The notes under the pieces were generated by a model. The model did no database searches and was not told where the DNA came from. It was given only the letters and a program-made list of their open reading frames with translations. 64,000 bases of DNA from Bacteroides sp. (GTDB lineage: Bacteria > Bacteroidota > Bacteroidia > Bacteroidales > Bacteroidaceae), in NCBI GenBank assembly GCA_015060765.1, contig SUXW01000002.1, positions 124,001-188,000 on the forward strand, read 5' to 3'. A program made the translations under genes and the position numbers. Shown here piece after piece: positions 4,146 through 18,320 of the stretch; position 1 is the first letter of the stretch; every line of letters starts with the position of its first letter.

Positions 4146-5876
4146 TCAATTCCGGTGCAATTTATCCAGTGCTTGTGATACATTAATCATGAAGTCACCC
4201 ATTTTTTCAAGTTCAGACACAACATCCATGTAATATACACTGGTCTGATAATTCTTACGATTATCTTCAATTTCTTCTATCGCAGCATCACGCAAGGTAT
4301 TACGGAGGTCATTGATACGGTCTTCCGCTTCATACGCATTACCAATACCTCCAAGTTTTCCTTCAAATGAAGCTGTCAGATTGGTTATCATTACATCGTA
4401 TGCACCATCCACCATATCCACCATTGCATTCAAATTGGCAATAGCTGTTTCATCGAAACTCTTGCTGTGAGCATTCTTTCTGGTGAGTATTCTACTGATG
4501 CTTTCACCCGAATCGCCCAAGGATTCCAATTCACCGATTATCTTATACATCGCTTTGATTTCTTTAGATGTATGTTCACTCACTTCTTCTGCCGACACCG
4601 CATTGAGGAAAGTAGCAATTTCATATTCGATGCGGTCGGAAATCTCTTCATACTTCACCAGTTTCTGACGCAATTCTTCGAACTTTTCCGTATCCGCTTC
4701 GTTGATAGCCTGACGTACATATTGCAAGCCATTCCTGGACACTTGGGCAAAATGTATGGTTTCACTGAAAGCCTGTTCAGTAGACAATTCCGGAGTGGAC
4801 ATCGGTCCTGCTTCGATGTATTTCAAACGAAACACTTCAGATTCCGCATTGGCAGGTGTTTTGATAATGGCAACAACCATTTTTTCAATATAACCCGTAA
4901 ACCAAATCAATATGAAAGTATTGATGGTATTGAATAAGGTATGAAGCATGGAAAGACCATATAGCGCGGCCGTTCCTTGTTCCGAATTAGCATTCTGTAC
5001 CATGAAATCTGGAGCTGCTGGATTAGGAAGACCAAACAATTCAATAATCTTACCTACCAAAGCCAAGAATGGCTGGAAAAGTATGAGTGCCCAAATAACA
5101 CCAAATACATTGAACACTGTATGCGACAAAGCAGCACGCTTAGCTGAAGTGTTTGCAACAGAAGCAGCAATATTGGCTGTAATGGTAGTACCGATATTTT
5201 CACCCAAAACCATCGCACATGCCATGTTGAACGGTATCCATCCCATGCTCAGCATAATAAGCGTAATGGCCATGGTTGCTGAAGACGATTGGAGTACCAA
5301 GGTAAGCACCGTACCAAATGCCAAGAAAATAAGTACGGAACCAAATCCATAGCCCGACCATACCTTAACAAATTCAAGCACCTCGGGAGTTTCGTTCAAA
5401 TCGGGAACGGATTCCTTCATGAAGGAAAGACCCAAGAACAACAATGAGAAGCCGACAATCAGTTCACCAATATTCCGACGTTGATCCTTCTTTGAATTGG
5501 AAAACAAGAAACCAAACAGCATCAACGGAACAGCAAGGATAGAAATATCAGCCTTGAATCCCAACCAAGAAACCAACCAAGCTGTTACCGTAGTACCAAT
5601 GTTGGCACCCATAATGACGCCAATGGCCTGTACCAAAGTCAAAAGACCAGCATTTACAAAGCTCACCACCATTACGGTAGTAGCCGATGAAGATTGAATG
5701 ACTGAAGTAATGCCCAAACCTGTCAAGACACGCTTCAACGGATTGGAAGTCATTGCAGACAAGAGCATACGCATCTTTTCACCAGCAGCTTTCTGAAGAC
5801 CGGAGCTCATTAAATTCATACCATATAGGAACATACCTAATGCCCCTAATAGAGTAAAGATTTGTAAAATACCCAT
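4146..5876 (-). CDS. Na+/phosphate cotransporter with PhoU-like tail
   Basis: A 576-residue inner-membrane protein. The N-terminal half has the inverted-repeat core of type II Na/Pi cotransporters, with two QSSSA motifs (SVIQSSSATT and LVLQSSSATM) and two glycine-rich loops (GANIGTT and GENIGTT). The C-terminal roughly 220 residues are soluble and helical and resemble PhoU, a common fusion in bacterial NptA-like proteins. The predicted role is sodium-driven phosphate uptake or homeostasis. It is a single gene between a shared terminator and a small secreted-protein gene. Confidence 0.92.
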   Translation of the reverse strand: MGILQIFTLLGALGMFLYGMNLMSSGLQKAAGEKMRMLLSAMTSNPLKRVLTGLGITSVIQSSSATTVMVVSFVNAGLLTLVQAIGVIMGANIGTTVTAWLVSWLGFKADISILAVPLMLFGFLFSNSKKDQRRNIGELIVGFSLLFLGLSFMKESVPDLNETPEVLEFVKVWSGYGFGSVLIFLAFGTVLTLVLQSSSATMAITLIMLSMGWIPFNMACAMVLGENIGTTITANIAASVANTSAKRAALSHTVFNVFGVIWALILFQPFLALVGKIIELFGLPNPAAPDFMVQNANSEQGTAALYGLSMLHTLFNTINTFILIWFTGYIEKMVVAIIKTPANAESEVFRLKYIEAGPMSTPELSTEQAFSETIHFAQVSRNGLQYVRQAINEADTEKFEELRQKLVKYEEISDRIEYEIATFLNAVSAEEVSEHTSKEIKAMYKIIGELESLGDSGESISRILTRKNAHSKSFDETAIANLNAMVDMVDGAYDVMITNLTASFEGKLGGIGNAYEAEDRINDLRNTLRDAAIEEIEDNRKNYQTSVYYMDVVSELEKMGDFMINVSQALDKLHRN

Positions 5877-6395: not shown

Positions 6396-7697
6396 TCATA
6401 AAAAACAAATGCGGAAACGAGTGATGCCATCCTCGTATGTACGGAGTGAGAAGCTGCATCCGTGCTTCATCAGCACTTCGCGGATAAAGATAAGGCCGAT
6501 ACCCTGGCCATTGGGCTTGGTAGAGAAGAAAGGAGTGAACAATTTGGTTTCCACTTCTTTGGAGATGCCCCGACCGGTGTCAGCCACCTCGAGCATGACA
6601 GGAGAAGCAGACGTACGAAGGGTAATGACACCGTTCTTCTCGATACTCTCCACGGAATTCTTCACCATGTTTATCAGCACTTGTTCAAAGAGCGAGGTAT
6701 CCATCTCCACCCACGGATTCTCTTCGCACAAATCCATACGAAGGTCTACTTGATGGTCTTGACAGATGTTTTCCAAGAATCTTTCGCAAGCCGATATACG
6801 GTCGTTCAAGCGCACTTCTTCCAACTGAGGTTCAGGAATCTTTACCACATCGGCAAAACGGGTGATGAACCGACTTAGCCTATATCCCCTTTCTACGCAC
6901 ACCTTCATCACTTCGCGCAGGTCGTCCGTATCGTCCATCGTTTGAAGGGCATCGTCCACGGTATCAAGAGTAGACGTTATGCCCGCCACAGAGTTGTTCA
7001 CCTCATGGGCAATCATGCGGATTACCTTTTCGTAAGCTTTCTTTTCGGCCTTCATCACTTCGGAGGTCAGGCTTTCTATCAAGAAAAACGGATGGGCAAA
7101 GCCACGGTCAACAAACGAGAGGCGGGAACATCGGTATATATGCGAATCGCTCAGACGAATGGTTTCTGTAGTATCCTTGAGCAAACGGCTCATTTCTTCG
7201 GCCAAGGGTGTTTTCAAATCCTCCATTCCTTTATCCAACATATCTTCTTCCGTATCCACTTCCAAAAATTGCAAGGCGGCCTTGTTGGCCATGGAAACCT
7301 TCCCGTCGAAAGTCAGGATAACCACCCCCATAGGCGATACGCTGATCAGCAAATCGAGGAAATGGTTTTGTTCGCGAAGGCGGAGGCGTTCTTCCTTCAG
7401 TTGTTGCATCATGCGATTGAAGATATCCACAATGCGGTCGGCTTCCAGTTGGCCCACCGACTTCAGTCGGCTGCTGAAATCCTGCTCGCGAAGCAAGTCC
7501 ATCCCGTTGGCAATGGTATCGAGCGGTTTTACCACCTTGCGATAGAAATAGGCCAAATAAATGAGGCTGAGGGTAATGACACCTTCCACCAGATAAAACT
7601 TCCACCCCACTTCCTTGATGGGCATGATGAGAAACATCAGCCCCCATGCAACCATCAGGAGCAATGCCAACAACAAGAAGAAGATTCTCAGTTTCAT
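6396..7697 (-). CDS. Sensor histidine kinase, NtrB/AtoS-like
   Basis: A 433-residue membrane kinase paired with the sigma-54 activator just upstream, from which it is separated by six bases. Two transmembrane helices (about residues 5-25 and 34-52) enclose a very short periplasmic loop, followed by a HAMP-like region, a PAS domain (about 110-210), the H box HEVNNSVAG (H231), the N box (N347), the G1 box DTGRG (373) and the G2 box GQGIG (398). With almost no periplasmic domain, it probably senses the membrane itself or a cytoplasmic cue through PAS. It should phosphorylate D50 of the partner regulator. Confidence 0.92.
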   Translation of the reverse strand: MKLRIFFLLLALLLMVAWGLMFLIMPIKEVGWKFYLVEGVITLSLIYLAYFYRKVVKPLDTIANGMDLLREQDFSSRLKSVGQLEADRIVDIFNRMMQQLKEERLRLREQNHFLDLLISVSPMGVVILTFDGKVSMANKAALQFLEVDTEEDMLDKGMEDLKTPLAEEMSRLLKDTTETIRLSDSHIYRCSRLSFVDRGFAHPFFLIESLTSEVMKAEKKAYEKVIRMIAHEVNNSVAGITSTLDTVDDALQTMDDTDDLREVMKVCVERGYRLSRFITRFADVVKIPEPQLEEVRLNDRISACERFLENICQDHQVDLRMDLCEENPWVEMDTSLFEQVLINMVKNSVESIEKNGVITLRTSASPVMLEVADTGRGISKEVETKLFTPFFSTKPNGQGIGLIFIREVLMKHGCSFSLRTYEDGITRFRICFL

Positions 7698-7703
7698 ATC
7701 CTA

Positions 7704-9056
7704 TCAAGATTTGGGCGTAACAATATTGTATTTCTCCAGCCTCCGATAGAGGGCACCCCGACTAAGTCCCAACGATAGAGCCACCTTCGACATGTTTCCG
7801 TTGTATTGCTCGATGGCCTGAAGAATGCGTTGCTTGTCCACCTCCTCCAACGTAAGTCCGTTCATATTTCCTATCGTCGACACCTCCATGGCCGATGTAT
7901 TCTGCGCCTTGAAGTCGTCCACATCGAGTAGTTCCTTCCCGCTGACCAGCAAGGTCCTTTCCACCAGATTCTTCAACTCGCGGATATTGCCCGGGAAAGG
8001 CAATCGTTGCAAGTAATCCATGGCCGCTTGTGTAAAGTCCACCGTCTGAAGACCGTTCGCTTGACAAAGTTTGTCGGCAAAGTGGCGCACCAGCAACGGG
8101 ATGTCTTCTTTACGTTCGCGCAAGGCAGGCAAATGTACGGTAATCAAATTGATACGATAGAACAAATCCTCGCGGAAGGTACGTTCCTGCACCCGTTGGG
8201 CAAGGTCTACATTCGTGGCACTCACCACACGGATATCCACCTTCCGGGGACGACTATCGCCCAATACTTCGAAAGTCTGTTCCTGTAATACCCGGAGGAG
8301 CTTTACCTGACAACTCAAATCCAAGTCGCCTATTTCGTCAAGGAAGATAGTTCCTTTATCCGCCATTTCAAAACGTCCTACTCTATCGGCCGACGCATCG
8401 GTAAAGGCTCCCTTCTTATGCCCGAACATCTCGCTTTCGAACAAAGTTTGCGAAATACCGCCCAAATTCACCTTCACGAAAGGTTTCTTGGCTCTGGGGC
8501 TGTTCTTATGAAGGGCTTCGGCTATCAGCTCCTTGCCCGTACCGCTTTCGCCCGTCACAAGTACCGAAGCATTGGTTTTCGATATGCGCTTGATGGTTTC
8601 CAACACATCCATCAACGCCTTGCTTTTCCCGATGATGTGACTACGGTCGAATCCTTCTTCGTCTACCTCTTTCGGTCCTTCCTTCTTGGCATTCAGTTCG
8701 AGGGCCGTTTCAATGCGTTGCATCAAGGCAGCATTGTTCCAGGGTTTGGTCACAAAGTCGAAAGCACCGGCCTGCATCCCCTTTACGGCCAAATCGATGC
8801 TTCCCCAAGCGGTCATCAGGATAACGGGCGCATCGGGTTGGAAGAGCTTGACTTGCTTCAAAAGGGTGATGCCTTCGTCTCCACTCGTAGTGAGGGAGAA
8901 GTTCATGTCCATCAGGATAAGTTCAGGACACACGGAGCGCACTACGGCCATTGCCTCCTTAGGGGTGGCAACCGCCTGAACCTCATACTTGGCCCGTTTC
9001 AGCATAAAGCTAAGGGAAGTACGGATAGCGCTATCGTCGTCTATAATCAGAATCAT
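7704..9056 (-). CDS. Sigma-54-dependent response regulator, NtrC family
   Basis: A 450-residue activator with three domains. The receiver has phospho-acceptor D50 in LILMDMN. The AAA+ domain has Walker A GESGTGKE (169-176), the sigma-54 contact loop GAFTDA (216-221) and Walker B GTIFLDEIG (235-243). A Fis-type helix-turn-helix lies at about 420-445. The intact GAFTDA loop means it should activate sigma-54 promoters. Two such promoters occur in this window, before tolC and before the ABC-exporter operon, with a shared palindrome upstream, so these are its likely targets. The gene lies between tolC and its kinase. Confidence 0.95.
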   Translation of the reverse strand: MILIIDDDSAIRTSLSFMLKRAKYEVQAVATPKEAMAVVRSVCPELILMDMNFSLTTSGDEGITLLKQVKLFQPDAPVILMTAWGSIDLAVKGMQAGAFDFVTKPWNNAALMQRIETALELNAKKEGPKEVDEEGFDRSHIIGKSKALMDVLETIKRISKTNASVLVTGESGTGKELIAEALHKNSPRAKKPFVKVNLGGISQTLFESEMFGHKKGAFTDASADRVGRFEMADKGTIFLDEIGDLDLSCQVKLLRVLQEQTFEVLGDSRPRKVDIRVVSATNVDLAQRVQERTFREDLFYRINLITVHLPALRERKEDIPLLVRHFADKLCQANGLQTVDFTQAAMDYLQRLPFPGNIRELKNLVERTLLVSGKELLDVDDFKAQNTSAMEVSTIGNMNGLTLEEVDKQRILQAIEQYNGNMSKVALSLGLSRGALYRRLEKYNIVTPKS

Positions 9057-9063
9057 AATGTTG

Positions 9064-9097
9064 CAAAGATAGTATTATTTTTTCACGATTTCCTCAA
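9064..9097 (-). promoter_or_regulatory. Possible internal promoter before the regulator gene
   Basis: On the minus strand a TTTG and a perfect -7 box TATCTTTG (9071-9064) lie at the end of tolC and in the gap to the regulator gene; the spacer is 22 bases. Transcription would start within a base or two of the ATG at 9056, giving an almost leaderless message. It would supply a basal level of regulator and kinase independent of sigma-54. Confidence 0.4.
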
Positions 9098-10562
9098 AAT
9101 CCGCATCAATGTTGGTGTTCTTCTCAAAGTCCCAAAGGGTGAGGCTACGGAGTTGGTAATAATAATACCAGTAATAGAACAACTCGCTGATGTGCTTCTG
9201 GCGGGCCTCGTCCTTGCTCACTTGTGCATCGTTCAAGTCGAGGGTACTGATTTTTCCTATCATGAAAGTCTCTACATTGGTGTGATAACGCTTTTGGGCA
9301 ATGGCATCGGCCTCGTTGGCTATGTCGAGCTGCGCCCGTTGGTTATTGAATTGCTCCACCAGGATGAAGAGGTTCTGGTTAAAGTTCATCGTTTCCTGGC
9401 GGAGGCGGCTCTCGGTCACTTCCCGATTGCTTTGCGCCACCTTCACCTGTCCGCGACGCTTGCCCCAATCCAGGATGGGAATCTTGAATCCCACTTCCAC
9501 CACCTGATTGTCCTTCAGCGGATGATAGGCACCCTCGAACGTGCGGTCGGTTCCCGTGAATCCCACTTGGGCAAAGAGCGTAATCTGTCGCATGTTCCCC
9601 TTTGCCTTGGCCACCTGATAGTCGGCTTCCAATTGCCGGCGACGGATGTTGTGCGCAAAGGAATTGTTGGCAAGCGCCTTATCGAGCACATCCTGATAGT
9701 TGAGCAGCATCTTAGGAAGCATATCGGGCAATACCGGTTCCAGTTCTTCGTTCTCGCCCAAGGCCAGGAACGAACGCAGTTGGAACATGTTGCTCTTCAG
9801 TGCGCTTTCGTTGTCGGTAAGCGACGATTGGGCATTCAGCATGTTCAGCTTCAGTTGCAGCACATCGTTCTCGCTTATCTGCCCCATCTTCCGTTTGGCT
9901 TTGGCCACCTCGTACAGCTTCCTGGCATTCTCCAGGTTCTGTTTGGCTATCCCCACATTCTCCTTGGCCAGCAAGAGGTTGAAGAAGTAGTTGATGGTGG
10001 TCATGGTCACCTCCTCGGTGGCACTGAGGAAAGCCGCCTTAGCCTCGGCATAACGCACCGGCTCGATACGTCGGTTCCACTTGATGTTGTTCACTCCGAA
10101 GATGGGTTGGTTCAAGGTCAGTGCGATGGGTACCGACATGAACCGTTCGTCCTTGTCTCCATTCAACTGCCTCATAAAGTCGAGCGAGGTATTGAGAGAG
10201 AGTGTACCGCCCGTGAGCCAGATGTTCTGGTCGATGGAGAGCTGGCCGTTCATCTGCATGTAGTTGTTGCGCACAAAGGTATAGGCGCCGTTCTCCTGCT
10301 GATAGGAGTTGTATGCCTTGTTATAGCTGGGCGCGATGGCCGAGAGGTTCACCTCGGGCAACAAGTCGGCCTTATAGGTGCGATACTCCCAATAGGCTGT
10401 TTTCAATTCGTTCAACGCCACGGCGGCATCCACGCTCTGGGTACGGGCAAGGAGGATAGCCTCGTCCAGCGTAATCTGACGCACCTGTGCTGTATTTCCG
10501 GCGGCTGCGCTCAATGCGAATCCCAATGCTACCGCCCAAGTCATTATTCTTTTTCTGTCCAT
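9075..10562 (-). CDS. TolC-family outer-membrane efflux protein
   Basis: A 495-residue outer-membrane channel protein. It has a signal peptide (MDRKRIMTWAVALGFALSAAA), then the duplicated helical and beta-strand pattern of the OEP family, with long amphipathic coiled-coil helices. The start was placed at the ATG before the signal; upstream in-frame ATGs fall at or before the sigma-54 promoter. It is the first gene of a tolC-regulator-kinase operon. The next operon supplies a periplasmic adaptor and ABC permeases but no outer-membrane channel, so this TolC is very likely its exit duct. Confidence 0.92.
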   Translation of the reverse strand: MDRKRIMTWAVALGFALSAAAGNTAQVRQITLDEAILLARTQSVDAAVALNELKTAYWEYRTYKADLLPEVNLSAIAPSYNKAYNSYQQENGAYTFVRNNYMQMNGQLSIDQNIWLTGGTLSLNTSLDFMRQLNGDKDERFMSVPIALTLNQPIFGVNNIKWNRRIEPVRYAEAKAAFLSATEEVTMTTINYFFNLLLAKENVGIAKQNLENARKLYEVAKAKRKMGQISENDVLQLKLNMLNAQSSLTDNESALKSNMFQLRSFLALGENEELEPVLPDMLPKMLLNYQDVLDKALANNSFAHNIRRRQLEADYQVAKAKGNMRQITLFAQVGFTGTDRTFEGAYHPLKDNQVVEVGFKIPILDWGKRRGQVKVAQSNREVTESRLRQETMNFNQNLFILVEQFNNQRAQLDIANEADAIAQKRYHTNVETFMIGKISTLDLNDAQVSKDEARQKHISELFYYWYYYYQLRSLTLWDFEKNTNIDADFEEIVKK

Positions 10563-10585: not shown

Positions 10586-10603
10586 GTGCAAAAGTCATGC
10601 CAA
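10586..10603 (-). promoter_or_regulatory. Sigma-54 (-24/-12) promoter of tolC operon
   Basis: On the minus strand TTGGCAT-GACTT-TTGCAC has the invariant GG and GC separated by 10 bases and fits the TGGCAY-N5-TTGCW consensus. The predicted start of transcription is near 10576, about 14 bases before the tolC ATG. A matching promoter precedes the exporter operon at 18231-18250. Confidence 0.88.
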
Positions 10604-10645
10604 GGATCATCAACTCTGAATATCAAATAGTTACAAAATCAATAA

Positions 10646-10674
10646 GTGTCCAATAATGGACATCACTGTTCGGT
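10646..10674. promoter_or_regulatory. Probable activator binding site upstream of tolC
   Basis: The palindrome TGTCC-N6-GGACA (10647-10662) is followed by CTGTTCGGT (10666-10674). Its centre lies 66 bases above the -12 element, as expected of an NtrC-type enhancer. The same two elements stand 67 bases above the -12 element of the exporter promoter. Confidence 0.75.
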
Positions 10675-10711
10675 TATGGAGTATTAATTAAGATAATGCT
10701 TCATTTCAGCA

Positions 10712-10896
10712 CTTACAATCTTACAATCTTACAATTACAAAAGGGTAAGGTCGTTTTGCTTGGGGAACAAAGAATTTGTAAAGAAATTTTATATATTATT
10801 ATATATATTAATATATATAATAATATATGATTTTTGTGTAAGTTTTTCTGAATCCTCTTTCAGTTAATTGTAATTGTAAGATTGTAAGACTGTAAG
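10712..10896. repeat. Nested inverted repeats around an AT palindrome
   Basis: The arms 10712-10740 and 10868-10896 are 29-bp inverted copies with one mismatch. Each arm is itself built from short CTTACAATC-like direct repeats. Between them a 38-bp stretch of pure A and T (10791-10828) is a perfect palindrome, nearly centred within the outer repeat. The structure could form a cruciform or a long RNA hairpin; no protein is encoded. Confidence 0.85.
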
Positions 10897-10932
10897 AAGG
10901 AATATGTCTCCAACCTTCCCAAAATCCGATTA

Positions 10933-10971
10933 GTAAAGTGCCACTTTCTTATTACTAAAGTGGCACTTTAC
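10933..10971. terminator. 15-bp hairpin after the exporter operon
   Basis: A perfect 15-bp stem GTAAAGTGCCACTTT with a 9-base loop lies 39 bases beyond the stop codon of the last permease gene. It may end that operon, but there is no clear T-run directly after it on the minus strand, so termination is uncertain. Each arm is also almost self-complementary (AAAGTG-C-CACTTT). Confidence 0.5.
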
Positions 10972-11010
10972 GATGCAGAAAATGGCATGTTAAATATAGT
11001 TTGTTTCCAA

Positions 11011-12258
11011 TCATTCATCATGCAAGGCCTCGGCCGGATGTACCTTCATGGCCTTACGGGCCGGAATGCTTACACCAATGGTTATCATCAAACCAATGAG
11101 CAGGAAGCTGATGAGGGCACAAAGCAGCAAGCGGTCGACTTCGAGGGTAGTACCGTTCCGTAGGGCATTCAACTCGGCATAAGCCAGATTGAAGTCGATG
11201 AGCAATGCAAGAGGTGTCACCAAAAGCAAGATTCCCCACCCTTCACTGAGCAGACGGTTGAACATCATGCGATTAGTAGCACCATGTGCCTTGTGCAAGG
11301 CTATTTCACTCTTGCGTTGTTGGGTACGGAACCAGAAGGTACCAAGCAAGCCAAGGAATACATTGAGCATCAAGAATGTCATGCCCGTTACCTTATTACG
11401 GATGTCGTTGGTTTGTTGTTGCTGATAAGCACGTCGCTTGTCCTTAAACGAATAGATGTTGCTGATAAAGATGTTCCCTATGCGGTATTGGCTTTCGCTA
11501 TCAGCCTTGATGTGGGCAATGAAATCCTTGTCGTGTTCGGGGCGGACACGCACGCAAAGCTCTTGCGTGCGGCTGACATGTTCCATCGGGAACTTATCCA
11601 CAATTGAAAAGCTATAATCGGCCTGTTCATAATCCGAGTAACGGACAGAGTTCAATACCGCGTCCAAGATGTGTGTACGGGTAGTGTCGCCATACAGATA
11701 AAATGACTTGCCTATCAGTTCGCTTGGCTTGCCATCCAAGTACTTGCAAAGGCTTTCGGAAAGCAGGAACTTGCCATCTTCCACCATCTGCGCCAATTGT
11801 TCGGGTGTTTCACCATTCACACCCGTGTAGCGGAACACACGAAGGAAATCGGGTGTCACGATACGTTGGATAATGTTGCCTCCCAATTGATTACCACCTA
11901 CCGGCTGGATGGTAGTAACCGAATTACTGATATTATAAGGGTAGGCATTATTGGAAAGGCTCACCGCCTCTATGTCGGGGCGATGCTGAAGACGGTCAAT
12001 CAGTTCGAGTACATCGCGTTGAAGTTCTTCAACCGATTGGTAAGTCACAAAGTCGGGACTCTTATCGTTGAGCAATCCCATCTCGATGTGATAAGTATGA
12101 CTAATGTCGAAACCTCGCGGTTCTATGTAGGTGGCGGTGGTGCAATAGAGGCTATCCACAATGTACCACATCACTACGCTGACCAGCAACAGCTCAATGC
12201 TCAGCCACAAGTTGCTTCGCCATTCGTTCTTTATTTGCGTAAATAGTTTTTTGTTCAT
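11011..12258 (-). CDS. ABC permease, FtsX/MacB-like (second pair, partner B)
   Basis: A 415-residue inner-membrane permease and the last gene of the exporter operon. It has one N-terminal transmembrane helix (about 18-36), a periplasmic domain of about 230 residues, and three C-terminal helices with the FtsX pattern, including the FRTQQRKSEIALHKAHGA coupling segment and the ending IPARKAMKVHPAEALHDE. The layout and start resemble the permease at 14292-15605. It follows its neighbour by seven bases and probably pairs with it as a heterodimer. Confidence 0.9.
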   Translation of the reverse strand: MNKKLFTQIKNEWRSNLWLSIELLLVSVVMWYIVDSLYCTTATYIEPRGFDISHTYHIEMGLLNDKSPDFVTYQSVEELQRDVLELIDRLQHRPDIEAVSLSNNAYPYNISNSVTTIQPVGGNQLGGNIIQRIVTPDFLRVFRYTGVNGETPEQLAQMVEDGKFLLSESLCKYLDGKPSELIGKSFYLYGDTTRTHILDAVLNSVRYSDYEQADYSFSIVDKFPMEHVSRTQELCVRVRPEHDKDFIAHIKADSESQYRIGNIFISNIYSFKDKRRAYQQQQTNDIRNKVTGMTFLMLNVFLGLLGTFWFRTQQRKSEIALHKAHGATNRMMFNRLLSEGWGILLLVTPLALLIDFNLAYAELNALRNGTTLEVDRLLLCALISFLLIGLMITIGVSIPARKAMKVHPAEALHDE

Positions 12259-12265
12259 AATGCAA

Positions 12266-13567
12266 TCAATTCAATCTTCCACTCAAAGCATTCACAATGC
12301 CGATGCGCGATGCACGCCATGCAGGGATGCCCGAAGAGAGTAGGTTCAATACAAAACAGAAGAAAAGTGCCCAGAGGAATGTGTCGGTCTGTAACAGGAT
12401 GGAAGCATCCACTTCGGGCAGATTGAGCGTTTGGCTATAGGGTTGTGCAAAGAGGAAATGATTGCCGGTATAAGCAAACACCACACTTAACAGCAATCCC
12501 AATACACCGGCTATCAGCGTAATGATGAAGTTCTCGGCTATAATTTGCATCATCAATTCTGATCGGGTACTACCGAAAGCCCGACGCACTCCAATCTCAC
12601 TGACACGTTGCCGCAAACGACTTTGCGTCATGCTGCTAATATTGATAGCGGGTACAAGGAGCAGAATCAAATAGATGATGAACTGCTGCCTGCGATGAGC
12701 CGCTACATCCGGCTCCCAGTTGGCAGCCATGCCAAGGGTGTTCTTCTCTTGGTCCCAGGGGCGGTTGCGTGAAATGATTTTCCACCCGTTTTCGCTAATG
12801 ATGTTGTTGTATTCCTCCAATCGGCGATCGCATTCTTGGCGAATGGTAGGAAAGTCATCACGTTCTTTGGCAAGGAGGGTACAACTCATCATACCCATGT
12901 GTCCGTCGTTCCATCGATCGTTATCCAATCCACCTGCCGAGTAAGGAATCCATACTTGTCCGTAGGCCGAATCAGCAAGAGTAGATACATCTTTCACCAC
13001 GCCACACACCTTGTAGGGTGCATGGTTCAGTAAGAATTCCTTCCCTACCACTCCTTCGGTCGTACCGAAAAGGGTATGCGCCACCGTTTCACATACGACA
13101 GCAACGGGAATAGCGGCATCGAACGTTGCTTTATCGAAGGGTTTCCCATCCATAAAACGGAAGTCGAACACTTGCCAAAACACATCATCCGTCTGTCGAA
13201 GATCGAATGTAGTAGTGGGTTGCCCCGGGAGGTTGAAAGGTGTGGCAAATGTACAAATGCCATAAATGGTCACCGCCTCAGGGGTTCTTAATGATTGATA
13301 GAGTTCTTTAGCCGTCAGGGCACTCATCGGGCCGTTACTGCTACCATCGCCCCATCCGCTGTTTGTAATACTTGCAAAACGTACATGCAGGAAACGGTCC
13401 CGATTACTTTCCGGAGCAAACGGGGCAGTTTTCACTTGTTGCATCATTACTACCAGCATAATGAGGAAGATGGCAAGGGCCGTTCCCACCACATTGATGG
13501 CACTTATAAGCGGTGACTGCTTTAATTGAGCAAAAGCCTGTTGTATAGTTTTCTGAATCATGATCAT
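12266..13567 (-). CDS. ABC permease, FtsX/MacB-like (second pair, partner A)
   Basis: A 433-residue permease with an N-terminal helix, a large periplasmic domain of MacB type, and three C-terminal helices; the coupling segment reads RLRQRVSEIGVRRAFGSTRS. It is the same length as the permease at 15612-16913 and its start is similar (MIQKTIQQAFAQLKQS against MIKTSFKQAWAMMKQN), which points to duplication. It directly follows the ATPase gene. The ATG at 13567 or the one two codons later could be the start. Confidence 0.9.
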   Translation of the reverse strand: MIMIQKTIQQAFAQLKQSPLISAINVVGTALAIFLIMLVVMMQQVKTAPFAPESNRDRFLHVRFASITNSGWGDGSSNGPMSALTAKELYQSLRTPEAVTIYGICTFATPFNLPGQPTTTFDLRQTDDVFWQVFDFRFMDGKPFDKATFDAAIPVAVVCETVAHTLFGTTEGVVGKEFLLNHAPYKVCGVVKDVSTLADSAYGQVWIPYSAGGLDNDRWNDGHMGMMSCTLLAKERDDFPTIRQECDRRLEEYNNIISENGWKIISRNRPWDQEKNTLGMAANWEPDVAAHRRQQFIIYLILLLVPAINISSMTQSRLRQRVSEIGVRRAFGSTRSELMMQIIAENFIITLIAGVLGLLLSVVFAYTGNHFLFAQPYSQTLNLPEVDASILLQTDTFLWALFFCFVLNLLSSGIPAWRASRIGIVNALSGRLN

Positions 13568-13579
13568 ATTGTTATATTA

Positions 13580-14254
13580 TCACTGTACCTGTCTACCATC
13601 AAAGAAGCGGACGGTTCTTGATGTCTGCTTGGCCTGGTCTTCGTTGTGAGTTACCATCACGATGGTGCGTCCGTCTTCCTTGTTGAGCTTATGGAGGAGT
13701 TCCATCACTTCGGCTCCCATCTTCGAGTCGAGGTTACCGGTAGGTTCGTCGGCCAGGATGATATCGGGATTGCCCACAATGGCGCGAGCGATGGCTACAC
13801 GCTGGCATTGTCCGCCCGAAAGTTGGGTAGGCATGTGGCGCATACGGTGGCTGAGGCCTACTCTTTCCAGCACGTTCTTGGCCAAGGCGGTACGTTCCGA
13901 GGCCGACATCTTGCGATAGAGCAACGGAAGTTCTACATTATCGAGTACATTAAGTGAGTTGATGAGGTGGAAACTTTGGAAAACAAAGCCGAGTGTCTTG
14001 TTACGGAAAGCAGCCAGTTCCTTGTCGCCCATCCCCTCGGTAGTGGTTCCGTTGATGGTGATGGTACCCGAAGTAGGTGTATCGAGCAGCCCCATAATGT
14101 TGAGTAGCGTGGATTTTCCACATCCCGAAGGCCCCATAATGCTGAGGAATTCGCCTTTTTGTACTTCCAAGTTCACGTTTTCGAGGGCTTGGGTTTCAAT
14201 TTCGTCTGTACGGTAAATCTTGTTGATACCTTTTAATTCAATCATTGTAGTCAT
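13580..14254 (-). CDS. ABC transporter ATPase, MacB/LolD type
   Basis: A 224-residue ATPase, the only one in the operon. Walker A is GPSGCGKST (about 41-49), the signature is LSGGQ (145-149), and Walker B with the next motif is [11 protein letters not shown] (166-176). This matches the MacB/LolD/FtsE subgroup, which powers periplasm-facing mechanotransmission. The start was set at MTTMIELKG; a longer frame adds 19 low-confidence residues. It sits between the two permease pairs and presumably serves both. Confidence 0.93.
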
Positions 14255-14291
14255 ACTATTCTTTATTTTTATTGTTATTATTCTTTTTTGT

Positions 14292-15605
14292 TTATTCATC
14301 GCGCAAAGCATCGGCCGGAAGGATTTTCGTGGCTCTTATTACAGGGATAAGGGTACCCACCCATGCAATGACAAGCAAGGCCAGATAAGTAATGACGCTC
14401 ACCATAAGGAAATGAGGGTTCTCTTCCATAAACCAGTTGACAGACATAAACTCCATATCGCCCGTACATTGAAACTTGGCCATATTGTCCTGCATGGCAT
14501 AATGAACCAAGATGATAAGCGATACCACAAAAGCAGCCGTTATCAGAAGGGTGGCTTCGGTCAAGAAACGAGAGGTGATGCCCTTTTTGGTGGATCCCAA
14601 ACTACGCATCAGCCCTATTTCCTGCCGACGGGCATTGCATCGAATCCAGAAAGTGCCCACCATGCCCAAGAAGATGCACAATAGGGCAAAAGATGCCAAA
14701 GCAAGCTTCAGACGGATAACATTGTATGTACCACTCTGCTTGGCCCAAGTGGTGCGTTGTTTCTCGAAAGACAACAAACGGTCAAAGAAGAAGTTGGCCA
14801 TGGCCATATTAGGTGCCACTTCTTTTTCGAAGCGTTCTACAAAGGCGTCTTCGTCCACCCCTTCCTTCAAGTTGAAGGCAATCATGTATGTCCAGTGCAT
14901 ATAGGGGCTTATACCCACCTTATTGTTTACACGTATTATCAATGGATAGATAGGTTCAAAATCGCGATGCTTGTAGTCCTTGAATACAGCAGCTATTTCA
15001 TGCGCTCTATCTCTATAATCATACACCTTCTTCCCTACTGCATCCGTAGTACCGAACATGTGGCGGGCAAAATTTTCGGATACATAGATCAAATTCCGTC
15101 CACCGGCATCTTGAGGCACTTCTATATCACCTCCCGTCAAGGCATTTTTCATGCCATACGTCTTGAAAAGGTTTCCACCACCCGCATTATTGAAGGTATA
15201 TTCTTGTGTATCTACGTATTTTCTTTCTTCTGATTTGAGGGTATCGGCATAATAGGTAGTACCGTTCCAGATTCCTCCATTGGGGAACGAACTGTTTTGT
15301 ACCAATAAGGCACTTTCCACCTCAGGGCAATCGCGCACCAGGCGAAGCATGTTGTCTATAGCCGTTCTTTGTTGTTCTTTGGTTACGGTCGTATCGCGCA
15401 TGCCATGTTTCTCTCCATAGGCTCCAAAGCGAAGTACATATCGGCCATCTTCTTCGTATCCCTCGGGGGTAAAGTGGTTGACGGTGAGTACATATACGGG
15501 GTCAATAACCGTCCACAGGAAAAATCCTGCAATGATGAGTTCCAATAGAATCCAGCCATTCTGTCGGCGCTGGTTCCATACTTGTTTGATGATATTCTTT
15601 AGCAT
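14292..15605 (-). CDS. ABC permease, FtsX/MacB-like (first pair, partner B)
   Basis: A 437-residue permease with one N-terminal helix (about 18-36), a periplasmic domain and three C-terminal helices. The coupling segment is CNARRQEIGLMRSLGSTKKG and the C terminus is RATKILPADALRDE. The N terminus (MLKNIIKQVWNQRRQNGWIL) resembles that of the permease at 11011-12258. Six bases separate it from its partner upstream. Confidence 0.9.
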   Translation of the reverse strand: MLKNIIKQVWNQRRQNGWILLELIIAGFFLWTVIDPVYVLTVNHFTPEGYEEDGRYVLRFGAYGEKHGMRDTTVTKEQQRTAIDNMLRLVRDCPEVESALLVQNSSFPNGGIWNGTTYYADTLKSEERKYVDTQEYTFNNAGGGNLFKTYGMKNALTGGDIEVPQDAGGRNLIYVSENFARHMFGTTDAVGKKVYDYRDRAHEIAAVFKDYKHRDFEPIYPLIIRVNNKVGISPYMHWTYMIAFNLKEGVDEDAFVERFEKEVAPNMAMANFFFDRLLSFEKQRTTWAKQSGTYNVIRLKLALASFALLCIFLGMVGTFWIRCNARRQEIGLMRSLGSTKKGITSRFLTEATLLITAAFVVSLIILVHYAMQDNMAKFQCTGDMEFMSVNWFMEENPHFLMVSVITYLALLVIAWVGTLIPVIRATKILPADALRDE

Positions 15606-15611
15606 AATAGT

Positions 15612-16913
15612 TTACCTCTTTGAATGAATGGAATAAATAATGGGGTGACGAAGCGCTACAATAGTAGGTACCAAGGCCGAGATAAGATTCAGCAATACGC
15701 ATACACCAAGCACCGTAAGGAACAAAGGCAGGTTGATGAGCATTTCCAAATGAATGGCCATAGGATAATCGCGATCAAAATACATATCTTCATTGAATAT
15801 GCTCAAGACCAACTCACCACCCATACAAACAAGGGTGTAAGCCAAGGCCAAGCCCAACAAGCCTCCCACCAGAGTAAGCAAAAGGTTTTCGGTAAGGACT
15901 TGATGAATAATACTACGATTGGTGGCTCCGTAGGCCTTGCGCACACCCAATTCGCTCATGCGTTCGTCCATCCGCGAGGATATCATGCCACACAAGTTCA
16001 AGGCAGGGATAAACAGGAAAGCCAACAACATGTAAAGAATACCTCGAACGGCCGAAGCAATATCGGGTTCGCCGGCACAAGAGGTACGGAAATAACTCTC
16101 CCACCACGTATCGGGCTGACCGAACATTTTATTGTCATACTTATCTTGCAAGCTGTGTTGCTTGACCACTTCCTGCACTTCGGCACGAAGGGCTTCCATA
16201 TCGTCATCCTTGGACAGGAGGTAAAGCTGGATGTTTCCGGTCAGGCCAGTATCATGAGCTTCCGGGCTCAACAATCCTCCCCAATACAGGGGCAGATAGA
16301 CTTCGCCCATGGTGACACCGGTAGCGGTAGAAGCATCCTTCACCACCCCGCACACCTGTACATCCTTTCCATCAAGGCTGATGTACCGGCCTGCCACATC
16401 GGTCTGAGCAAAGATACGTCTGGCCATACTTTCGGAAAGTACTGCTTTGGGAAGAGTTGACTCCACATCGGCATCGGTAAACGGGTGTCCGCTGACAAAA
16501 CGAAAGGCAAACACCTCCCAAAAATCCTGGTTTACCAATTGTACGATAGGCGAATATTGTTCGTTGGTTTCGGGAATAACTATCGTTACGCCCAAAAAAT
16601 CGCCTATATTGGAAGCTGCGGCCATCTTGTCCAAATGTGGCAGATTCTTCAATAAATCAAAGATACGGGCATTCACTCCACTATTGCAAGAATAATTGTT
16701 GTCATTTTCCTTGTTCACCGCACTCATGCTATTGACAACGAGCGTCCGGTTACGGTTATACTCCGGATAGATGGGGGCAAACTTTACATAATAAATAATG
16801 AACAGAATCAGTGTAAAGGCCACGGACAACCCCGTACCCGCCACATAAATGGTGGTAAAGAGGCGATTCTGTTTCATCATGGCCCAAGCTTGTTTGAAAG
16901 ATGTCTTTATCAT
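15612..16913 (-). CDS. ABC permease, FtsX/MacB-like (first pair, partner A)
   Basis: A 433-residue permease with the N-terminal helix, MacB-like periplasmic domain and three C-terminal helices of the family. The coupling segment is RMDERMSELGVRKAYGATNR. It follows the adaptor gene by 29 bases. It is most like the permease at 12266-13567, so the operon carries two A/B pairs. It probably exports, or extracts from the membrane, a substrate that passes through the adaptor and TolC. Confidence 0.9.
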   Translation of the reverse strand: MIKTSFKQAWAMMKQNRLFTTIYVAGTGLSVAFTLILFIIYYVKFAPIYPEYNRNRTLVVNSMSAVNKENDNNYSCNSGVNARIFDLLKNLPHLDKMAAASNIGDFLGVTIVIPETNEQYSPIVQLVNQDFWEVFAFRFVSGHPFTDADVESTLPKAVLSESMARRIFAQTDVAGRYISLDGKDVQVCGVVKDASTATGVTMGEVYLPLYWGGLLSPEAHDTGLTGNIQLYLLSKDDDMEALRAEVQEVVKQHSLQDKYDNKMFGQPDTWWESYFRTSCAGEPDIASAVRGILYMLLAFLFIPALNLCGMISSRMDERMSELGVRKAYGATNRSIIHQVLTENLLLTLVGGLLGLALAYTLVCMGGELVLSIFNEDMYFDRDYPMAIHLEMLINLPLFLTVLGVCVLLNLISALVPTIVALRHPIIYSIHSKR

Positions 16914-16942
16914 AATTGAGAACGAATAATGTGGAAATTTCT

Positions 16943-18190
16943 TTATTTCACTTTTAGTTTCTTCTTGTTACGGAACTCGCTCATGTCGCTCACCACTACC
17001 TGGTCACCCGATTGGAGGCCACTCACCACTTCCACGTATTCAAAATTGGAGTCGCCCAACTTCACTTTACGCTTCACCAGTTCGTTGTCGCCATTGAGCA
17101 CAAAGAGTTCGTAATCGCCACGGCCCACATAATACGAGGCATTGGCAATGCGCATCACATCCTCCTTTACGGCATTCATTACATAAACATCGGTTTTGAG
17201 TCCTGAACGAAGGCGCTTGTGGTTATCTTCGGCCAACTGAACGCTGAAGCTGATAACTCCATTCTTCGACAAAGGAGTTACACTACTCACCGTTCCTTCC
17301 AATTTTTCGCTGCCAATCTTCACGATAACCTTTCCGCCGGCCATCACTCTATCGCCATAAGTATCGGCAATTTCGCCTTCTACCTTGAAGTGGCTCAAAT
17401 CGGACACGATGGCCACTTGCGAACCTTGCGAGACTTGTGCACCCACCTGATTGTTGATATAGGTAAGGATAGCCTTACGGGGCGAACGGATTTGTGCATC
17501 TTCGAGGGTACGCTTCATTTCGGCCAATCCTTTGGAGAAGATATTGAATTCCAATTCCTTCACCTTCATATCGGCAGCCTTCACTTGTTTCTCGTTTTCG
17601 TATTGTTGGCGAAGTTGTTCCAGTTCCAATTTTCCGGTGTTAAAGGCCAGTTCGGCTTGGCGCACCTTGTCGGTAGTTCCGCTTCCCAAACTGTCGAGGT
17701 ACCGTTCGTTACGCAGTTCCACCTCCATCCGGTTGAGCTTCATGGCACTCACCTTGACATTCATTTCAAGGTTGCTCAAATAGGTGTGGTTATTGAGGCG
17801 CAATTGTTCCAACTGGTAACGACGCATCTGCTCCTCGTCGAGCAATTTCTTGTACTCGGTTTCTGTACTCTGAAGGTCGAGCTTCAACAAAGGGGTACCT
17901 ACATCCACGCTATCGCCTCCTTTGCCATAAACTTCCACAATACGGGTACTGACGGGTGAGTTGATGATTTCTTCGAAAGCCGGCACCACTTCGCCCGAGG
18001 CACTCACGCTAACCTCTATCGTCCCCTTATCGACGGTAGAAAGGACGAGGTCCTTTTTCTTCACACTACTTTGCATCCACGAGATCAGTACGGCCATGCA
18101 CACCACCGATACAATTCCGATGGCTCCATACTTCATTAATTTCTTGTTGCGCTCCTTTTGGCGCACTTCTTTTGGTATTTCTCTGTCCAT
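16943..18190 (-). CDS. Periplasmic adaptor subunit, HlyD/MacA-like
   Basis: A 415-residue membrane-fusion protein and the first gene of the exporter operon. It has a short basic cytoplasmic N terminus, one transmembrane helix (about 21-39), the first lipoyl half-motif, a long helical hairpin (about 110-215), the second lipoyl half (IRSPRKAILTYINNQVGAQV) and beta-barrel domains. MacA-type adaptors link an inner-membrane ABC permease to TolC. The transmembrane anchor rather than a lipobox fits MacA. Transcription is predicted from the sigma-54 promoter 40 bases upstream. Confidence 0.93.
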   Translation of the reverse strand: MDREIPKEVRQKERNKKLMKYGAIGIVSVVCMAVLISWMQSSVKKKDLVLSTVDKGTIEVSVSASGEVVPAFEEIINSPVSTRIVEVYGKGGDSVDVGTPLLKLDLQSTETEYKKLLDEEQMRRYQLEQLRLNNHTYLSNLEMNVKVSAMKLNRMEVELRNERYLDSLGSGTTDKVRQAELAFNTGKLELEQLRQQYENEKQVKAADMKVKELEFNIFSKGLAEMKRTLEDAQIRSPRKAILTYINNQVGAQVSQGSQVAIVSDLSHFKVEGEIADTYGDRVMAGGKVIVKIGSEKLEGTVSSVTPLSKNGVISFSVQLAEDNHKRLRSGLKTDVYVMNAVKEDVMRIANASYYVGRGDYELFVLNGDNELVKRKVKLGDSNFEYVEVVSGLQSGDQVVVSDMSEFRNKKKLKVK

Positions 18191-18230
18191 ATATGATTAT
18201 TTTTGTTGCTAAATGAAATCTATATTATCT

Positions 18231-18250
18231 ATAGCAAAGACCGTGCCAAA
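18231..18250 (-). promoter_or_regulatory. Sigma-54 (-24/-12) promoter of exporter operon
   Basis: On the minus strand TTGGCACG-GTCT-TTGCTA matches the sigma-54 consensus almost perfectly, with GG and GC 10 bases apart. The predicted start is near 18222, leaving a leader of about 32 bases before the adaptor gene. No competing TAnnTTTG box was seen between it and the ATG. Confidence 0.92.
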
Positions 18251-18290
18251 CCATTAACTCACTGAAAACCAACAGAAAGACAAAAAGAAA

Positions 18291-18320
18291 GGGTGTCCAT
18301 TTTCGGACACCCTGTTCGGT
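18291..18320. promoter_or_regulatory. Probable activator binding site upstream of exporter operon
   Basis: The perfect 8-bp palindrome GGGTGTCC-N6-GGACACCC contains the TGTCC-N6-GGACA core seen before tolC and is followed by the same CTGTTCGGT element. Its centre is 67 bases above the -12 element. Because T-rich sequence follows on the minus strand, it could also act as the queH terminator; the two roles are compatible. Confidence 0.75.

Follow-up and report, generated by a model that had tools for sequence, protein, structure and literature searches.

A putative sigma-54 regulon of exporter genes in Bacteroides and its relatives

In the psp operon of Escherichia coli, with its regulator PspF, a site for integration host factor (IHF) lies between the enhancer and the sigma-54 promoter. 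IHF is commonly placed in this way (PMC7962754), and its E. coli binding consensus is WATCARNNNNTTR (WATCARxxxxTTR; PMC3897727, PMC7962754). A similar arrangement has been described for the orp operons of Desulfovibrio vulgaris, in which palindromic sites of an enhancer-binding protein (EBP) lie upstream, a WATCARxxxxTTR element lies in between, and an AAA+ EBP activates transcription (PMC3897727). Here we analyzed a stretch of 64,000 nucleotides of a Bacteroides sp. genome (assembly GCA_015060765.1, contig SUXW01000002.1, positions 124,001 to 188,000), hereafter the window. It contains two minus-strand operons, one of the order tolC-regulator-kinase and one of the order adaptor-permeases-ATPase, and each is headed by a -24/-12 element with a TGTCC-N6-GGACA palindrome above it. 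We consider it highly probable, judging from comparison with related genomes, that these sites are enhancers of one sigma-54 regulon that would be bound by the NtrC-type regulator encoded in the tolC operon.

The scheme of regulator, enhancer, IHF and sigma-54 is already known as a kind; the regulon, its binding site, its two promoter geometries and the overlap of enhancer and terminator appear to be new. With regard to the orp operons, the potential IHF site of orp2 at -43 is near the position found here, whereas the EBP site of orp1 lies at -131 and the enhancers proposed here are nearer to the promoter (PMC3897727). Furthermore, the present system belongs to Bacteroidota, would control an exporter regulon, and has a second geometry lacking the IHF site in some tolC promoters. 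The preliminary description of this DNA, made from its sequence, did not recognise a described system in the arrangement. This is mostly right, but Carrera-Reyna et al. (2025) had predicted sigma-54 promoters upstream of genes for the FtsX-like ABC permeases (COG0577) of Bacteroidia, a result that they described as first evidence (PMC12316311). On the other hand, the passages of that survey on the permease genes name no EBP or enhancer, and the terms TolC, IHF and integration host factor have no occurrences in its main text (PMC12316311).

Two operons with one promoter layout

The elements reported previously for the window are all in place. Both operons start with a near-consensus -24/-12 element, the palindrome and the adjoining CTGTTCGGT are exact above each, and re-measuring the distance from the palindrome centre to the end of the -12 element gave about 66 and about 67 bases. 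The palindromes lie 44 or 45 bases upstream of their -24/-12 elements, and the gap between palindrome and CTGTTCGGT is 3 bases in the tolC operon and 2 in the exporter operon. Each motif by itself is unremarkable within the window when mismatches are allowed: there are 71 matches to the -24/-12 element at two mismatches or fewer (52 expected; one of 100 shuffles reaches 71) and four palindromes at one mismatch or fewer (1.7 expected; 11 of 100 shuffles reach four). It is the combination that counts. The whole assembly (2.9 Mb, 42 contigs, 84% complete) has the exact palindrome in three places; the third falls within a long reading frame, by eye that of a peptidase-like protein, and was taken to be a chance occurrence. 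A palindrome followed at 25-60 bases by a -24/-12 element occurs in the assembly solely at the two window sites, and the reversed control pattern does not occur at all.

Comparison of related genomes showed that this layout is conserved. A scan with the regulator yielded at least 583 loci, of which the best 80 were kept; their titles name Bacteroides, Phocaeicola, Parabacteroides, Tannerella, Segatella and others, including one Roseburia that is probably mislabelled. In 64 of the 80 a tolC gene had at least 230 bases above it, and these were used for the spacing test with the pattern TGTYC-N6-GRACA plus TGGYAY-N5-TTGC (one mismatch at most overall, gap 25-100). The pair was kept in 45 of the 64 upstream regions, the gap of the best pair being 45 bases in 15 loci, 44 in 13, 43 in two and 31 in another 15, and 40 rounds of shuffling the same regions gave no pair at one mismatch or fewer and a mean of 0.1 at two. 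The search of relatives for the motif pair above orthologous operons, a check set in advance, thus recovered a fixed spacing. In searches of two genome sets, the real pattern was present in 16 of 23 and 28 of 151 genomes and the reversed control in none of either set. The 58 pattern hits gave 55 loci, some of which are one place reached twice, and 50 of these have tolC, HlyD, ABC or MacB genes downstream; three hits yielded no locus and are unclassified.

Two geometries can be distinguished by the gap. The 31-gap promoters from the pattern searches stand before tolC, and B. cellulosilyticus uses both geometries, with a gap of 31 above tolC (locus L095 in our numbering) and the longer gap above HlyD (L200). 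Hits with gaps of 36 (L126) and 33 (L140) were taken as chance and excluded from the counts of IHF sites and terminators given below. A pair with a gap of 55 was also seen (L147), for which we found no explanation. Three Bacteroides HlyD promoters (L190, L191 and L208) have a -12 element that reads TTTCG, not TTTGC, with the remaining layout intact, and one locus (L018) contains three enhancer/promoter sites.

Of 55 non-redundant promoters, 52 went into a promoter sequence model (R1), many of them from genomes later searched with it; L100 and the two P. vulgatus DUF promoters were omitted, and the training set contained no promoter of a DUF2807 or DUF3836 gene. Among 24 genomes, matches at an E-value of 0.01 were found in all 24 and matches below 1e-7 in 23. 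The 69 matches below 1e-7 were classified by hand count according to the next gene, which encodes an adaptor (23), TolC (12), an ATPase (10), a MacB-type permease (5), a DUF2807 protein (8), a DUF3836 protein (8) or a transglutaminase-like protein (1); the other two precede stretches of N and are unclassified. Exporter genes thus lie downstream of 50 of the 69 matches. An additional set of 30 loci gave exporter or DUF genes downstream in 14 of the 15 that could be classified, the other 15 being unclassified owing to a misfit of the regular expression. The preliminary description envisaged a regulon of two operons. Both operons do carry the layout, but judged by these matches the regulon in related species is larger, comprising further exporters and secreted DUF2807 (toastrack) and DUF3836 proteins, and the IHF-type site and terminator likeness described below had been overlooked.

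By eye, the toastrack proteins of the regulon start with sequences resembling signal peptides or those of lipoproteins. The most likely function is a response of export and envelope stress, because the same sites precede exporters and the genes for secreted DUF2807 and DUF3836 proteins. DUF2807 falls in the toastrack domain, a recurrent partner of the PSP and Lia membrane-stress systems (PMC11237479). Toastrack (DUF2807/DUF4097) is the one shared component that we saw in this comparison, PspA, PspC and LiaF not having been searched for. The EBP is a further likeness, to PspF. Output here would run through sigma-54 and an NtrC-type regulator, whereas LiaR is a winged-helix-turn-helix protein, and the toastrack is predicted to be intracellular in that work (PMC11237479), unlike the signal-peptide-like or lipoprotein-like starts seen here.

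Tandem palindromes, a mid element and a hairpin

Alignment of 52 promoters with gaps of 42-46 bases gave the consensus TGTCCG-N4-CGGACA and revealed a second palindrome upstream of it. The distal copy has at least 8 of 12 positions in 45 of the 52 promoters, against 2.9 expected from shuffles, and in 41 of them all the two copies repeat with a 19-base period. The CTGTTCGGT motif, previously described as accompanying the palindrome, is indeed present, but by this alignment it is the well-kept half of the second, tandem palindrome. Several promoters of the 31-gap class have two fuller palindromes 23 bases apart.

The promoters used for analysis of the region between enhancer and promoter were gathered by palindrome and -24/-12 element alone and right-aligned on TGG. 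In the longer-gap class, which has 69 non-redundant promoters, 24 have an exact WATCARNNNNTTR starting 19 bases above TGG, and 51 have it there when one mismatch is tolerated; when the spacers were shuffled, a match of that quality at any position turned up in a mean of 4.2 promoters (maximum 11). In the window, the exporter promoter has this site at one mismatch. Among 13 non-redundant promoters with gaps of 30 or 31, none has a match closer than three mismatches. An IHF-type bend at this mid element is likely, and a candidate for the acting protein is a member of the HU/IHF family: the genome has three good matches to this family, two of them adjacent, for which IHF models rank best in NCBIfam, yet under the cut-off.

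Another feature of the enhancers is their likeness to intrinsic terminators, defined here as a palindrome that continues for three or more further pairs and has a T-rich run behind it. In the longer-gap class, promoters whose upstream gene is co-directional are terminator-like in 23 of 45 cases, as compared with three of 21 with a divergent one (Fisher p 0.006, relatedness ignored) and two of 11 with none called; the upstream direction, like the next-gene calls, was taken from the longest nearby reading frame. None of 17 promoters of the 31-gap class is terminator-like. Both window sites fold better than shuffles, the exporter site at -19.3 kcal/mol (z -3.2) and the tolC site at -13.5 kcal/mol (z -3.7), the latter, however, without flanking pairs directly beside the core. 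Where the upstream gene reads towards it, the enhancer often resembles a terminator hairpin. If confirmed, the use of a single hairpin both to end one gene's transcript and to enhance transcription of the following gene would be an unusual economy.

The regulator, its proposed sites and competing explanations

The regulator and the sites occur together. The motif, at an E-value of 1e-7 or better, is present in all 40 family genomes with the regulator and in five of 111 without it (151 genomes; Fisher p 2e-31, relatedness ignored). The regulator was called at 58% identity, a line set after the list had been viewed; the genome of the window is among the 40, and three of the 40 orthologues matched over residues 136-445 only. 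Of the 80 loci, ten lacked tolC, and two of these were set aside (L094, with 221 bases above the regulator, and L068, with a permease there), both from genomes that likewise carry strong sites. In the remaining eight, where at least 5 kb above the regulator contain no tolC, five genomes have sites at 8.6e-16 or better, and in four of these five the nine classified sites precede genes for ATPases (4), DUF2807 (3) and DUF3836 (2) proteins. That one regulator would govern both operons, as proposed earlier, is supported by the fixed spacing in 45 of 64 loci, by the exporter genes downstream and by this co-occurrence. If the regulator binds the tolC-operon site, autoregulation follows, because its gene lies within that operon. 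As a separate observation, the regulator homologues of five genomes from two genera (G037, G086, G104, G109 and G125 in our numbering) match only from the AAA+ domain on (residue 136 or later), so that a different receiver part is conceivable in them despite conservation of the site.

Several observations weigh against a single regulon under this regulator, the case for which is built from comparison of sequences. The pair is missing from 19 of the 64 tolC upstream regions, most of them inside a longer operon: in 11 (L044, L047, L052, L059, L062, L063, L069, L077, L082, L086 and L092) tolC is within a longer operon and a site stands above the adaptor gene of the same locus; it took the model search to reveal a site upstream of an adaptor gene in L067, L084 and L091; and L017, L028, L030 and L056 start inside the exporter operon, the genome search having given an adaptor-gene site for three of this group (L298, L296 and L302) and L030 having been outside that search. 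In L040 (B. fragilis), tolC has a perfect -24/-12 element but palindromes about 190 bases off, a third spacing. Among the five motif-bearing genomes under the regulator cut-off, G109 and G125 have a 56% identical AAA+-helix-turn-helix (HTH) homologue and G088 is 81% complete, and G149 and G158 are near-complete, lack such a homologue and carry sites before DUF3836 and DUF2807 genes. Moreover, the co-occurrence is partly built in, because the regulator gene usually lies behind one of the sites, and two of the eight genomes without a nearby tolC have no site and one has a weak one (3.2e-6). The mid element is likewise imperfect: the window tolC promoter has four mismatches, 18 of 69 promoters exceed one mismatch at this offset, and the HU/IHF proteins of the genome fall short of the IHF cut-offs of NCBI. 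Finally, cross-talk is possible because the palindrome of a second EBP module of the genome, L013 (TGTCTAATTATTGGACA), is rather similar.

How, then, do other explanations fare? Chance likeness of two short motifs within one window accounts for the fact that each motif is common there when mismatches are allowed, yet we give it practically no weight, the fixed spacing in 45 of 64 loci, its absence from shuffles and the reversed control in none of 151 genomes having refuted it. It seems improbable that the palindromes are operators of another protein, whether a different EBP or a repressor, and not of the operon's own regulator. The genome does encode four clear sigma-54 EBPs, the L013 module has its similar palindrome, with a 7-base spacer, and G149 and G158 retain sites without a close regulator; against this stand the co-occurrence in 40 of 40 genomes versus five of 111, the site above the regulator's own operon, the strong sites in five of eight genomes whose regulator has no tolC nearby, and the fact that L013 and a further EBP module, L014, carry palindromes of their own above exporters of their own.

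The remaining two alternatives concern what the elements do. The palindromes might be merely intrinsic terminators of the upstream genes, with a sigma-54 promoter incidentally close, as the 23 terminator-like co-directional promoters and the better-than-shuffled folding of both window sites would allow. We consider this very improbable: only three of 21 divergent and none of 17 31-gap promoters are terminator-like, yet the core letters are kept there, and terminators require pairing, not set letters, whereas core, second palindrome and spacing to the -24 are all conserved. Termination was hence dropped as the sole function and retained as a second predicted one. For the mid element, we judge it unlikely, but deserving of attention, that WATCAR-N4-TTR is another factor's site or an extended promoter. 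A TGAT half to the left of its core gives it a palindromic look (CTGATTATCAG), five of 69 mid elements match the consensus exactly on the opposite strand too, at one place, and both the low-scoring HU/IHF-family proteins and the window tolC promoter without a mid element point the same way. On the other hand, the element fits both conserved blocks of the published E. coli consensus with the correct 4-base gap and is placed where IHF sites are found, in the interval from the enhancer to the sigma-54 promoter (PMC7962754, PMC3897727), and the same offset recurs in three of 13 sigma-54-like sites without the window palindrome, two other offsets having one match each. An IHF-type bend thus remains the likely reading; the protein is uncertain, the genome's candidates scoring under the IHF cut-offs.

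Gene products, signal and parallel modules

The features discussed are collected in Table 1. The closest match to the window regulator is 99% identical, in a record titled Bacteroidaceae bacterium. The regulator has the NtrC-type architecture of receiver (PF00072), sigma-54 AAA+ (PF00158) and Fis-type HTH (PF02954) domains, and a sigma-54 gene is present in the genome (PF04552, E 1.3e-47). The GAFTDA loop of the regulator is a close variant of the GAFTGA contact loop and is found in another EBP of the genome too; of 80 regulator orthologues, 76 have GAFTDA, two GAFTGA and two GSFTDA.

Table 1. Features of the two operons and their upstream regions (positions in the window).
Feature	Position	Strand	Remarks
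-24/-12 element TGGCATGACTTTTGC, tolC operon	10588..10602	-	one mismatch to TGGCAC-N5-TTGC
-24/-12 element TGGCACGGTCTTTGC, adaptor-ABC operon	18234..18248	-	zero mismatches to TGGCAC-N5-TTGC
Proximal putative enhancer palindrome TGTCC-N6-GGACA, tolC operon	10647..10662	.	exact
Proximal putative enhancer palindrome TGTCC-N6-GGACA, exporter operon	18294..18309	.	exact
CTGTTCGGT, conserved half of distal palindrome, tolC operon	10666..10674	.	20-base period
CTGTTCGGT, conserved half of distal palindrome, exporter operon	18312..18320	.	19-base period
Place of IHF-type site, tolC promoter	10609..10621	-	degenerate, 4 mismatches to WATCARNNNNTTR
IHF-type site, exporter promoter	18255..18267	-	1 mismatch to WATCARNNNNTTR; conserved offset 19 bases from TGG
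Terminator-like hairpin, GGG-palindrome-CCC then T-rich run	18278..18312	-	33 bases past stop of co-directional upstream gene (18933-18343)
Sensor histidine kinase	6396..7697	-	two transmembrane helices, very short loop; HAMP, HATPase; PAS just below cut-off; HisKA below cut-off
NtrC-type response regulator, proposed palindrome binder	7704..9056	-	receiver, sigma-54 AAA+ with GAFTDA loop, Fis-type HTH
TolC-family outer membrane channel, heads tolC-regulator-kinase operon	9075..10562	-	OEP domains; start chosen by us
FtsX-type permease	11011..12258	-	domain match
MacB_PCD/FtsX permease	12266..13567	-	domain match
ABC ATPase	13580..14311	-	top NCBIfam models DarD, LolD, MacB, each under cut-off
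FtsX-type permease	14292..15605	-	domain match
MacB_PCD/FtsX permease	15612..16913	-	domain match
HlyD/MacA-type periplasmic adaptor, heads exporter operon	16943..18190	-	domain match

Like MacAB-TolC, the two operons together encode a HlyD/MacA-type adaptor, MacB_PCD/FtsX permeases, an ATPase and a TolC-type channel with OEP domains. MacB is a single ATPase-permease polypeptide, whereas here the ATPase (243 amino acids) is separate and accompanied by four permeases, two MacB_PCD/FtsX and two FtsX (with the ATPase, within 11011-16913), and no NCBIfam cut-off was reached among the 25 or fewer models per protein. We therefore call the exporter MacAB-TolC-like, not MacAB, because its ATPase is separate from the permeases. 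DarD and DarC of the darobactin exporter DarCDE are among the best NCBIfam models for ATPase and adaptor, but scores are far under the equivalog cut-offs (254.9 versus 375 for the ATPase, 69.1 versus 450 for the adaptor). The exporter operon is variable, with two to six FtsX-type permease matches around the ATPase across L015-L094.

Kinases of the Bce type sense within the membrane; they have two helices with under about 25 residues between them, and receive their signal from an FtsX-type transporter. The window-type kinases have such a short loop: by hydropathy windows, 3-19 residues separate the helices in 70 of 77 measured, the distance being 37 or 59 in the other seven, in at least one owing to the choice of start site. 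A two-helix kinase with almost no loop, adjoining FtsX-type ABC genes, recalls the Bce arrangement. Because of its two helices and very short loop, the kinase probably senses the membrane or a membrane partner, and our preferred guess, by analogy, is that an FtsX-type transporter feeds the signal to it.

These elements suggest the following course of events. The kinase, with almost no periplasmic domain, would respond to some condition of the membrane or envelope, possibly by way of the exporter, and would phosphorylate the NtrC-type regulator, as suggested by the adjacency of the two genes. The regulator would bind the TGTCCG-N4-CGGACA palindromes, which are arranged in tandem with their centres some 40-75 bases upstream of the -24. 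In the usual geometry, to judge from the motif and from known sigma-54 promoters, an HU/IHF-family protein might bend the DNA at the WATCAR-N4-TTR site 19 bases above the -24, letting the activator touch sigma-54 RNA polymerase and open the promoter. The output would be more TolC channel, adaptor-ATPase-permease exporter, regulator and kinase, hence a positive loop. If an adjacent gene is transcribed towards the site, the palindrome often has the form of a terminator-like hairpin as well, which would insulate the operon.

Three of the four clear sigma-54 EBPs of the genome stand with a kinase. The L013 EBP gene is divergent from an ATPase-FtsX operon and that of L014 from a tolC-HlyD operon; both modules have their own -24/-12 element, their own palindromes (in L014, TGTGCG-N4-CGCACA twice) and different recognition helices. 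Inspection by eye showed the IHF-type consensus matched exactly at offset 19 in L013; in L014 it is matched exactly at offset 31 and with one mismatch at 19. Near the fourth clear EBP (L012, about 4641-5342), no exporter or kinase match was found. In Parabacteroides gordonii, sigma-54-type promoters in L240 (1410, 3939 and 8871, minus strand) and L241 (2557 and 9691) have another palindrome, e.g. TGTCTAATATTTAGACA, and a similar mid element; they precede large FtsX permeases and a TolC-like protein, and probably represent a further EBP regulon. As a tentative generalization, one we would sooner doubt than adopt, the sigma-54 of Bacteroidales may for the most part be a factor dedicated to export and envelope stress, with several insulated modules per genome, each combining a short-loop kinase and an EBP with its own palindrome on a shared chassis of tandem palindromes, IHF-type site in a fixed position and -24/-12 element, an FtsX transporter feeding the kinase, and the enhancer doubling as terminator.

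We found no description of the present regulon in the literature searched, outside which most subscription journals lie, and the passages returned by term searches of the literature on bile fitness and on per- and polyfluoroalkyl substances (PFAS) do not treat it. PM2 of B. thetaiotaomicron, considered as the same motif, was rejected, being a -10/-30 motif, and a search for the Bacteroides host factor BHFa gave nothing useful. Locus tags BT_0855-0858 are a guess for the B. thetaiotaomicron copy (BT0857 is tabled as a TolC protein in one paper) and were not used here. Sigma-54 regulons seem little worked out in Bacteroidota, which are major human gut bacteria, and the present analysis yields a regulator with its likely binding site, a list of targets and a promoter layout, all open to immediate testing in laboratory strains such as Phocaeicola vulgatus. 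Exporters that are uncharacterised are thereby connected with DUF2807 and DUF3836, two secreted families whose role is unknown, which suggests an envelope-stress function, and enhancer looping that is aided by a bending site could be compared with looping that is not within a single natural regulon.

The segment 10700-10975 of the window, which separates the exporter operon from the tolC enhancer, has by eye inverted copies of GTAAGATTGTAAG-type units on either side of a long run of A and T only; a hairpin in this segment, AAAGTGCCACTTT..AAAGTGGCACTTT, is likely a terminator.

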